Source of the DNA: Gallionella sp.
GTDB taxonomy: Bacteria; Pseudomonadota; Gammaproteobacteria; Burkholderiales; Gallionellaceae
Assembly: GCA_028687335.1 (NCBI GenBank)
Contig: JAQUAI010000017.1
Coordinates: 1 to 59,471, forward strand
Direction of reading: 5' to 3'
DNA length: 59,471 nucleotides
A model generated the notes under the pieces. It was not told the DNA's origin and did not search any database. It was given only the letters and a program-made list of their open reading frames with translations. The position numbers were made by a program, and so were the translations under genes. Position 1 is the first letter of the stretch. Every line of letters begins with the position of its first letter. Positions 1,483-46,699 of this stretch are shown piece after piece.

Positions 1483-1511
1483 TTGACATGAGAACGTGCG
1501 TTCTTTTAAAG
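1483..1511 (+). promoter_or_regulatory. lexA promoter
   Basis: A perfect -35 TTGACA at 1483–1488 and a T/A-rich -10 (TTAAAG at 1506–1511, spacer 17, or TTTAAA at 1505–1510, spacer 16). The first SOS palindrome (1491–1504) fills the spacer, so a bound repressor would block RNA polymerase directly. The second copy lies just downstream of the -10. Confidence 0.65.
1491..1504. promoter_or_regulatory. Candidate LexA operator 1 (AGAACG-N2-CGTTCT)
   Basis: AGAACGTGCGTTCT is a perfect palindrome in its 6-bp half sites. The same half sites with the same 2-bp gap recur upstream of recA at 45167–45180. Finding it upstream of both lexA and recA, the two classic SOS genes, is the reason for calling it the LexA operator. 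It is unlike CTG-N10-CAG. Confidence 0.8.
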
Positions 1512-1515
1512 TGTC

Positions 1516-1529
1516 AGCACGTTCGTTCT
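1516..1529. promoter_or_regulatory. Candidate LexA operator 2 (imperfect copy)
   Basis: AGCACGTTCGTTCT differs from the perfect palindrome at one position of the left half site. Its centre is 25 bp from operator 1. A tandem pair at lexA is consistent with tight autoregulation, as in other bacteria. Confidence 0.65.
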
Positions 1530-1543
1530 GTTGAGGTGTTGCC

Positions 1544-2152
1544 ATGAGTGATTACGATCACGTCGAATCTAATCCCAAAGATGCTGAGTATTTGGCCAAG
1601 CTGCAAGATTATTATGCCGAGTGGAAGAGCATTCCTTCGTATGCTTCGCTTTGTGAGGTGTTTGGTATTGCGTCGAAGTCTTGGGTAAAGGCTATTCTTG
1701 ATCGTTTGGGTAAGAGTGGTTTTATCGAGCGTACGCCGGATGGTGTGTGGGTGCCTACGCGTCAGTTTTTTGCCCGGCCAATGGCTGAGTCTTCGGTGCA
1801 GGCGGGGATGCCGGTGGCGGTAACGGCAACGCAGGGCGATTATTTGATTATTGATGAGATGTTGATTGATGAGCCGTCCAAGACTACGTTGATTCCGGTT
1901 AAGGGCGACTCGATGATTGAGGCGGGTATTCACGACGGGGATGTCGCTGTGGTTGAAAAGCGTATGACGGCGAATATCGGGGATATTGTGGTTGCTATTG
2001 TGGATAACGAATTTACGCTTAAAACGCTGGATAAGGAGCGTGGCCAGTTTGTGTTAAGGCCATCTAATCAGGCATTTCCCACGATACGGCCGCAAGGGTC
2101 ATTGGAGATTTTTGGTGTGCTGGTGGGGTTGATTCGCAAGTATCGTAAGTGA
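1544..2152 (+). CDS. lexA: LexA-family SOS repressor (S24 self-cleaving protease)
   Basis: 202 aa, the usual LexA length. The N-terminal winged helix (about 12–70) includes SIPSYASLCEVFGIAS and then GFIERTPDGVW; it is clearly LexA-like but divergent in the recognition helix (SKSWVKAILDRL). The C-terminal S24 protease domain is complete: cleavage bond Ala87–Gly88 in VQAGMP, nucleophile Ser123 in GDSMIEAGI, and general base Lys160 in NEFTLKTL. These match Ala84–Gly85, Ser119 and Lys156 of E. coli LexA. It should dimerise, repress SOS genes and cut itself when RecA filaments form. The ATG at 1544 has GAGG at 1533–1536. Two palindromes lie in the promoter. It is monocistronic, ending at a two-way terminator. 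Confidence 0.92.
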   Translation: MSDYDHVESNPKDAEYLAKLQDYYAEWKSIPSYASLCEVFGIASKSWVKAILDRLGKSGFIERTPDGVWVPTRQFFARPMAESSVQAGMPVAVTATQGDYLIIDEMLIDEPSKTTLIPVKGDSMIEAGIHDGDVAVVEKRMTANIGDIVVAIVDNEFTLKTLDKERGQFVLRPSNQAFPTIRPQGSLEIFGVLVGLIRKYRK

Positions 2153-2219
2153 GGGTGTTGCGCTGTTGATGCGGCACTTGAGCGGTTAGCATTAATGAAA
2201 CACTGCTTAAGTCTCGTTT

Positions 2220-2286
2220 GTCATTCCCGCGAAAGCGGGAACCCAGTTAAATAAAGGCACTGGATTCCCGCTTTCGCGGGAATGAC
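2220..2286. repeat. Inverted pair of palindromic repeats (dRS3/REP-like)
   Basis: Two 27-bp arms (2220–2246 and 2260–2286) are inverted copies of each other with two mismatches. Each contains its own palindrome, ATTCCCGC-GAAA-GCGGGAA. The 13-bp spacer is AT-rich. The unit resembles the ATTCCC-N-GGGAAT repeats (dRS3) of Neisseria and related intergenic repeats of betaproteobacteria, and could be a substrate of a RAYT such as the one at 210–929. It sits between lexA and its terminator. Confidence 0.8.
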
Positions 2287-2311
2287 GACTTAATCGGTAC
2301 TTCCTTAAACT

Positions 2312-2348
2312 AAAAAGCCACGAACACTTTCTGTGTTCGTGGCTTTTT
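2312..2348. terminator. Bidirectional intrinsic terminator between lexA and pstB
   Basis: A 16-bp perfect stem (AAAAAGCCACGAACAC and its complement) with a TTTCT loop is flanked by A and T runs on either side. It can therefore stop transcription of lexA (plus) and of the pst operon (minus), which converge here. Confidence 0.9.
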
Positions 2349-2368
2349 TTGTTGTGGTTGAGCAAAAA

Positions 2369-3142
2369 TTAACCGAAGCGGCCGGTGATGTAGTCTTCTG
2401 TTTCTTTGCGTTTGGGGTTGGTGAAGACGGTGCTGGTGTCGCCGAATTCGATTAGGTCGCCTAGGTACATGTAGGCGGTGTAGTCGGATACGCGCGCGGC
2501 CTGTTGCATGTTGTGGGTAACGATGACGATGGTGAAGTCTTCTTTCAGTTCGTCGATCAGTTTTTCGATGTGTGCGGTGGAGATCGGGTCGAGCGCGGAG
2601 GTCGGCTCGTCCAGTAGTAATACTTGTGGTTTAACTGCAATCGCGCGGGCGATACACAGTCGTTGTTGCTGGCCGCCAGATAGGCCGGTTCCGCTTTGTT
2701 TTAGTTTGTCTTTGACTTCGGTCCATAGGGCGGCCTTTTTCAGCGCCCATTCGACGCGCTCGTCCATGTCGTTTTTGCCTAGTGTTTCGTATAGTTTTAC
2801 GCCAAACGCGATGTTGTCGTAGATGGACATCGGGAAGGGGGTTGGTTTTTGGAACACCATGCCGATTTTGGCGCGCAGCATGTTCAGGTCTTGCTTGGGG
2901 TCGAGGATGTTTGCGCCGTCCAGAATGATTTGGCCGGTGGCTTTTTGTTTTGGGTAGAGCTGGTACATGCGGTTGAAGGTGCGCAGCAGGGTGGATTTAC
3001 CGCAGCCGGACGGGCCGATGAACGCGGTGACCATCTTTTCCGCGATGTTCATGTTGATGTTGTTTAGCGCGCGATAGTTACCGTAATAGAAGTTCAGGTC
3101 TTTGACGACGACTTTCGGGTTGGCGATATTTTCAGCGTTCAT
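2369..3142 (-). CDS. pstB: Phosphate ABC transporter, ATP-binding protein
   Basis: 257 aa from the ATG at 3142 (an in-frame TTG lies 6 bases upstream; AAGG sits 7 bases before the ATG). PstB is the ATPase of the high-affinity phosphate importer PstSCAB. The Walker A motif GPSGCGKS is at about 43–50, the ABC signature LSGGQQQR at 154–161, Walker B LLLDEP at about 175–180, and the switch His in IVTHNMQQA. Length and spacing are normal. It is the last gene of pstS–pstC–pstA–pstB and is followed by the two-way terminator, so phoU, which often follows pstB, is not part of this operon. Confidence 0.97.
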
Positions 3143-45166: not shown

Positions 45167-45180
45167 AGAACGAACGTTCT
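45167..45180. promoter_or_regulatory. Candidate LexA operator of recA (AGAACG-N2-CGTTCT)
   Basis: AGAACGAACGTTCT has the same perfect half sites and gap as operator 1 of lexA at 1491–1504. It lies 58 bases before the recA start. It contains the smaller palindrome GAACGTTC as well. Confidence 0.8.
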
Positions 45181-45237: not shown

Positions 45238-46257
45238 ATGGATGAGAACAAAAGCAAAGCACTTGCGGCTGCATTGAGCCAAATCGAGAAACAGTTCGGC
45301 AAAGGCTCCATCATGCGCTTGGGTGAGAGTGAAGTCGGCAAAGACATTCAAGTGGTTTCCACTGGCTCGCTTGGTTTGGATATTGCGCTGGGCGTGGGTG
45401 GTTTGCCGCGCGGACGAGTTATCGAAATCTATGGCCCAGAGTCTTCTGGCAAAACAACACTGACACTGCAAGTCATTGCTGAAATGCAAAAACTGGGCGG
45501 GACAGCAGCGTTTATCGACGCAGAGCACGCACTGGATCCTGGATACGCGCAGAAGCTGGGCGTAAAAGTGGAAGATTTGCTGATTTCGCAGCCAGACAAT
45601 GGTGAGCAGGCACTGGAAATCGCCGATATGCTGGTGCGTTCCGGCTCGGTTGATGTGGTCGTAGTGGACTCAGTCGCCGCGCTGACCCCCAAAGCTGAAA
45701 TCGAAGGTGATATGGGCGATCCGCAAATGGGCTTGCATGCCCGTTTGATGTCGCAAGCTTTGCGCAAACTGACTGCCAACATTAATCGCTCGAACACCAT
45801 GGTCATCTTCATCAACCAGATCCGTATGAAGATCGGTGTGATGTTCGGCAATCCCGAAACGACCACTGGCGGTAATGCGCTCAAGTTTTATGCCTCCGTA
45901 CGTATGGACATCCGCCGCACTGGCGCGATCAAAAAAGGCGACGAAGTCATCGGCAACGAGACGCGAGTCAAAGTGGTTAAGAATAAAGTTGCACCACCGT
46001 TCCGTGAGGCTAACTTTGACATTCTGTATGGCGAAGGCATTTCGCGTGAAGGTGAAGTTATCGAGCTGGGCGTGCTGCACAAGCTGGTAGAGAAATCCGG
46101 TGCGTGGTACAGCTACAACGGCGAAAAAATCGGTCAGGGCAAAGATAATGCACGCGAGTATCTGCGCGAGCATCCGGCTATGGCCCGAGAGATCGAAAAC
46201 AAAGTGCGTGCTGTGCTTGGCGTAGCAGCATTGGCTGGCGGTGAAACCGAGGAGTGA
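45238..46257 (+). CDS. recA: Recombinase RecA
   Basis: 339 aa. Walker A GPESSGKT is at 66–73, the MAW Glu and [17 protein letters not shown] follow, loop L1 reads [21 protein letters not shown] in pieces, and [28 protein letters not shown] carries L2. It coats single-stranded DNA for strand exchange and triggers LexA self-cleavage. GAAAGGGG precedes the ATG. Its promoter has the same palindrome as lexA. The last 17 bases overlap recX. Confidence 0.98.
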
Positions 46258-46699
46258 GCTTTCGTTGCGTGTCCGCGCCATGCACTATTTGGCGCGGCGC
46301 GAGCATAGCCGCGCCGAACTGCGCAATCGCCTGTTGCCCCATGTGCGTGAAGGCGAAGATGTCGATGCGGTTCTGGATGAGCTAACCGCACGCAACTGGC
46401 TGTCCGACACGCGAGCCGCAGAGCAAATGCTCAGTCAACGCCGGTCACGTTTTGGGGTGCAACGTATCGTTCACGAGTTGCGCCAAAAAGGCATAGGCGA
46501 CGACCTCATCGCTGATGCACTACCGCAATTAAAAGAAACCGAACTTGATGCCGCACGCGAGGTGTGGCTCAAGAAATTCGGCACACTCCCGCAAGACCAG
46601 AAAGAAAAAGCCAAGCAAGCCCGCTTCTTGCAATCGCGCGGCTTTTCTCTCGGCACTATCCTCAATGTTTTACAGGCTGCAGACGAGTCTGATTTATGA
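46241..46699 (+). CDS. recX: Regulatory protein RecX
   Basis: 152 aa of three-helix RecX repeats: [20 protein letters not shown], then [20 protein letters not shown], the [16 protein letters not shown] repeat and a final [17 protein letters not shown]. RecX caps and inhibits RecA filaments. It starts inside the recA end (17-base overlap), so its synthesis depends on recA translation and it should share SOS control. Confidence 0.94.

Follow-up and report, generated by a model that had tools for sequence, protein, structure and literature searches.

The window, the whole stretch of 59,471 nucleotides of Gallionella sp. DNA that we analyzed, carries a lexA gene and, further along, recA and recX, and copies of the palindrome AGAACG-N2-CGTTCT lie upstream of both lexA and recA (Table 1). 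The genes recX and recA are probably carried on one transcript. A gene for a transposase of the REP-associated Y1 type is located upstream of lexA at 198–929 (NF047646, 60.1 bits, below the cut-off; PF01797), and an inverted repeat that resembles a REP element, TTCCCGCGAAAGCGGGAA ... TTCCCGCTTTCGCGGGAA, was found at about 2220–2290, directly downstream of lexA.

Table 1. Genes, predicted promoter elements and predicted LexA operators in the window.
Feature	Position	Strand	Remarks
Predicted -35 of the lexA promoter, TTGACA	1483..1488	+	From sequence
Box 1, AGAACGTGCGTTCT	1491..1504	+	Predicted LexA operator; 0 mismatches to AGAACG-N2-CGTTCT
Predicted -10 of the lexA promoter, TAAAGT	1507..1512	+	From sequence; between the two boxes
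Box 2, AGCACGTTCGTTCT	1516..1529	+	1 mismatch; 25 bp start to start from box 1
lexA	1544..2152	+	202-aa repressor, a divergent LexA; 103.1 bits for TIGR00498, slightly below the cut-off of 110.95
recA box, AGAACGAACGTTCT	45167..45180	+	Predicted LexA operator of recA; 0 mismatches; same place at recA in relatives
recA	45238..46257	+	TIGR02012, 569.8 bits
recX	46241..46699	+	NF001055, 177.5 bits, cut-off 129; overlaps the end of recA

The preliminary description of this DNA had placed a perfect palindrome in the -35/-10 spacer of lexA, an imperfect second copy 25 bp downstream, and the same half sites and gap upstream of recA, and all three are present. Box 1 lies inside the predicted spacer of 18 bp and is kept upstream of lexA in relatives; box 2 follows the predicted -10 after 3 bases, lies over the predicted transcription start, and ends 14 bp before the lexA ATG. 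In the aligned lexA upstreams of relatives, the -10 position reads TACGAT, TACAGT, TATAGT or TATATT. The recA gene has a single box, in contrast to the tandem at lexA. Because the two boxes bracket the predicted -10 and the second covers the start, LexA bound to either of them would be expected to block RNA polymerase at lexA.

Base composition predicts 0.0035 perfect sites in the window, and the two that were found (P about 6e-6 for two or more) are both upstream of SOS genes. In the 2.40-Mb genome, 0.14 perfect sites are expected and 3 were found (P about 4e-4), at lexA, recA and a umuD-like gene, each upstream of a gene of the SOS type. When up to two mismatches were allowed, the window contained 3 sites, which is not unusual (shuffle mean, 2.07; at least 3 in 37 of 100 shuffles), and the genome contained 47, versus 109 for the reversed pattern, so that the weak sites carry no signal. 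If the boxes were merely chance palindromes, these counts, equal to chance in the window and below the reversed control in the genome, are what one would see; however, the two perfect window sites and the recurrence of sites at the same genes across genera, including lexA and recA, make such an origin extremely improbable. The motif might also have proved to occur at random positions and not at other SOS genes, as the preliminary description had anticipated for the case that it was wrong, but the one remaining perfect site of the genome belongs to the umuD-like gene.

This third perfect box precedes a gene on contig C23 for a 158-aa UmuD-like protein (NF007621, 134.9 bits, cut-off 110), the promoter of which has the same layout as that of lexA: TTGACA, box, -10 and box, with 25 bp between the boxes. 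The gene (positions 1553–2026 of locus L003) stands apart from lexA and has no adjacent umuC in that locus; in two other genomes (G028 and G012), lexA, umuD and umuC follow in a row (loci L049 and L054; named by eye). There are three one-mismatch sites in the genome: box 2 of lexA, the corresponding second box of umuD, and a site within an unrelated coding gene. Strong sites thus occur at only three genes of this genome, which is 88.5% complete, and no box was found at uvrA, recN, dinB, imuA or ssb among its perfect and one-mismatch sites. One two-mismatch site is situated upstream of a ppnK-recN-like pair (locus L015, contig C11; named by eye). An open reading frame resembling the start of Cas9 (by eye) is found at about 1648–3012 of the same locus, beside the NAD-kinase-like and recN-like genes.

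The predicted LexA protein matches solved LexA chains end to end in a profile comparison, and the fold also agrees. Of the protease, which the preliminary description had called fully conserved, the cleavage pair A87-G88 and the catalytic residues S123 and K160 do not vary among 27 aligned LexAs. The companion statement, that the reading helix is divergent and the likely operator is not CTG-N10-CAG, is also supported. The whole protein shares 32% identity with a canonical LexA from the order. The canonical LexA domain PF01726 had no match in the 88.5% complete genome, in which only two S24 proteins were identified, the divergent LexA and the UmuD-like protein. Judged by its sequence and its fold match, the protein is a genuine but divergent LexA. 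A dimer of it would bind GAACG-N2-CGTTC and would repress lexA, recA and the umuD-like gene until RecA triggers the self-cleavage of LexA.

The exact motif was detected in 44 of 60 genomes of the family, with 129 matches versus 16 for the reversed control, and was absent from the other 16 genomes. Among 29 loci of other genomes, with one site each, 24 sites were at recA (14), lexA (5), umuD-like (2) or radical-SAM genes (3), and five were unassigned; 20 further hand-chosen sites were at recA (7), umuD-like (3), lexA (2) and radical-SAM genes (2) or elsewhere (6). In relatives, recA, lexA, umuD-like and radical-SAM genes recur next to the motif. Genes at these sites were named by eye from translations, and L003 and L195 were also scanned with profiles; the radical-SAM protein of L195 belongs to NF033668 (PA0069 family; 466.5 bits). 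No NCBIfam family matched when L019 and L203 were scanned in the same way.

Relatives of the LexA protein (at least 43% identity over nearly the whole length) were found, among the rows listed, in 74 of 300 sampled genomes of the order, three of these 74 having an in-frame stop in the gene. In 14 of the 74, a canonical LexA domain was also matched strongly (E below 1e-20), a count that leaves out the weaker canonical matches of G137 and G103. Of the 158 genes that encode LexAs of this kind, 143 have a perfect GWAC-N4-GTWC at -130 to -8, versus a mean of 1.1 in shuffled sequences that preserve base content only. No operator-like site was found upstream of five of the 158 genes (L183, L104, L155, L072 and L240). 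For canonical LexAs of the order, three examples of the gene showed CTGT-N8-ACAG at 0–1 mismatches.

On the basis of the sites, the adjoining genes, their conservation, the match to the LexA fold and the protease residues, all of which can be read directly, we consider that the boxes at lexA and recA are operators of the genome's own divergent LexA and that they belong to a known noncanonical regulon of Betaproteobacteria (probability about 0.93); binding, repression and induction are what we infer from these data. It could be argued that a different dimeric repressor, one that happens to control repair genes, uses the palindromes as operators while LexA binds elsewhere, since the box differs from the canonical LexA box of proteobacteria and its binding by LexA is deduced. 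However, the box lies upstream of lexA itself across many families and LexA lineages (the 143 of 158 genes above), in Methylophilaceae the sequence of the box varies along with the helix of LexA, and LexA binding was reportedly demonstrated in a relative in 2015, all of which render a second repressor very improbable.

Several genomes deviate from the general distribution. Four of the 60 family genomes (G048, G058, G008 and G004) have neither an S24-domain protein nor an exact box, and LexA may have been lost in them; G048 belongs to the genus of the window and is 99% complete, and G058 is a single contig (99%). In genus g9, the exact AGAACG-N2-CGTTCT box was found in 1 of 10 genomes, and in some g9 genomes there is an SPVAAL-type LexA, with GGAACGTTCGTTCC or AGAACGTTCGTTCC. 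The single-contig genome G013 encodes three full-length LexAs of two lineages (L027, L135 and L053), two with a perfect box upstream and one with a two-mismatch box. Several LexAs of Patescibacteria (L243–L250) are 33–37% identical to the LexA of the window and also have Lys45.

We examined the tandem arrangement in lineage A, defined as the LexAs with the helix SKSWVK (32 upstreams, representing 28 proteins that are distinct at 93% identity). Box 2 of the window has one mismatch and recA has a single box, and two perfect boxes 15–45 bp apart were found in only 27 of the 126 LexA-type genes outside lineage A, so that box 2 might be a non-functional leftover of a promoter duplication. Within lineage A, however, two boxes 23–25 bp apart are kept in 28 of the 32 lexA upstreams (mean of 0.02 in shuffles, again with only base content preserved), with a spacing of 25 bp in 19, 24 bp in 8 and 23 bp in 1, and the umuD-like gene has the same box pair. 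We therefore regard a leftover as unlikely, and box 2 as a probable second operator of LexA. In 30 of the 32 upstreams, a box is preceded by TTGAC at a distance of 1–6 nt, and the layout of -35, box, -10 and box is a candidate lead that may go beyond the known regulon.

A second lead of this kind is that several LexA lineages in one family appear to read the same box. The 47 LexA rows of the family, which leave out named duplicate records of the same genomes, need four label changes on a tree of 118 rows, all forced by starred branches, and holding 27 of the family LexAs together was rejected (AU p 2.5e-5; 79 rows; quick trees). The type of LexA helix follows genus within the family: SWVK occurs in g1, g2, g11, g12 and g13; SPVAAL and its relatives in g3, g6, g8, g9, g10, g14, g15 and one g13; SAIKK in g13; and KSTSAVAAMV in g10 and g11. 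The first three types have GAACG boxes, and the KSTSAVAAMV type, which has Thr45, has GAATGATTGTTC or no box. As some genomes hold two helix types, part of this diversity represents added copies and not replacement, and since several helix types share one GAACG box, the box is able to persist when LexA changes. The preliminary description had suggested that operator and reader may have changed together. As a general rule this finds no support, because the helices SWVKAIL, SPVAALI, SAVSKLL and AAASKLM all keep the GAACG box; a joint change can be seen only locally, where Thr49 accompanies GTAC.

The GTAC variant is, in our view, the most interesting of the three candidate leads (tandem boxes, alternation of lineages and GTAC). 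Position 49 is presumably the counterpart of the DNA-contacting Glu44 of Escherichia coli LexA. All 18 distinct Methylophilaceae LexAs with Thr49 have a perfect GTAC-N4-GTAC upstream, and no GAAC-N4-GTTC was found within one mismatch in the upstreams of these 18 proteins. Of 25 Methylophilaceae genomes, 12 contain the exact TGTACRNNYGTACA box, which is found at two umuD-like genes (L347 and L356) and a radical-SAM gene (L343; by eye) as well. Three Methylophilaceae LexAs without Thr49 (L322–L324) have GAACGAACGTTC and nest inside the Thr49 group on the quick tree, an apparent reversal from the GTAC box; L325, which also lacks Thr49 and has a stop codon, has no clear box. Across all families, each of the 7 distinct helix strings with Thr49 goes with GTAC, versus 3 of the 90 others, counts that are uncorrected for relatedness. 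The trees contain two independent pairs, of which 1.7–1.8 agree and none opposes; with only two pairs the association cannot reach 0.05. The first tree kept the helix columns and later trees cut them, and the Thr49 counts were unchanged. The three helix strings with GTAC and without Thr49 comprise L257 (Mariprofundus), which has a perfect box, and L325 and L239, which have one-mismatch sites; the perfect box of L257 indicates that Thr49 is not necessary. A tentative scenario, to which we give somewhat less than even odds, is that a small change in the recognition helix, to Thr49, rewired base pair 2 of the SOS box in Methylophilaceae, from GAAC to GTAC, both at lexA and at further SOS genes, with a later return in one sub-lineage, while the LexA lineages of Gallionellaceae, unrelated as they are, took each other's place and left the box as it was.

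The inner bases of the box were compared with helix position 45. Lys45 accompanies an inner CG in 70 of 86 distinct helix strings, versus 3 of 11 for other residues (Fisher 5e-4, uncorrected for relatedness). On the trees, there are two to three independent pairs on starred branches, with 1.1–1.9 agreeing and 0.1–0.3 opposing on average. The clearest case is found in family f50, where Arg45 accompanies GAACATTTGTTC; the exact search located that box only at lexA, and a single additional exact match, which has a different inner sequence, is at an unassigned gene. Lys45 as the reader of the inner C·G pair is a weak lead.

The box was compared with the operators of other LexA systems. The SOS box of Bacillus subtilis is CGAACN4GTTCG (PMC3091678), and the boxes of the window share with it the outer core GAAC-N4-GTTC, as the preliminary description had remarked. 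In contrast, several lexA upstreams of Firmicutes have an inner A..T, and their LexAs have Thr or Ser at position 45, whereas the boxes of the window have an inner C·G and the protein has Lys45; the Firmicutes-type combination of inner A..T and helix (Thr/Ser45, STVHGHL), as defined from the Firmicutes rows, was not found here. The canonical CTGT-N8-ACAG is likewise a palindromic LexA operator at lexA promoters but has another sequence, and its best match upstream of the window lexA has three mismatches. The cyanobacterial LexA box is AGTACWNWTGTACT (PMC3091678); it has the GTAC half site of the Methylophilaceae variant, but it belongs to another phylum and its inner bases are A/T, whereas those of the variant are mostly C·G. 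A published account puts the number of distinct LexA motifs reported at 17 and links motif change to lexA duplication (PMC8565304).

The comparative set offers a natural experiment on joint change versus constancy of a repressor and its operators: reading helices that differ greatly occur with one and the same box, and a change of one base in the box accompanies one helix position. The closest known system is a noncanonical LexA regulon of Betaproteobacteria, reportedly described by Sanchez-Alberola and co-workers in the Journal of Bacteriology in 2015 for Sideroxydans lithotrophicus and Gallionella. Its consensus is said to be GAACGaaCGTTC, with recA and lexA as targets and with LexA binding shown in a relative, and it is reportedly conserved in Nitrosomonadales and Methylophilales and to have spread laterally. 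In the window, GAACG-N2-CGTTC is present at both lexA and recA together with a non-canonical LexA; the box (by the consensus as reported), the two targets and the host family are the same, and lexA is likewise unrelated to the canonical betaproteobacterial lexA. In these features we see no essential difference between the two. The box and its LexA are thus an ordinary instance of a known exception and not a new system, and they add one more genome to this published departure from the textbook SOS system of proteobacteria.
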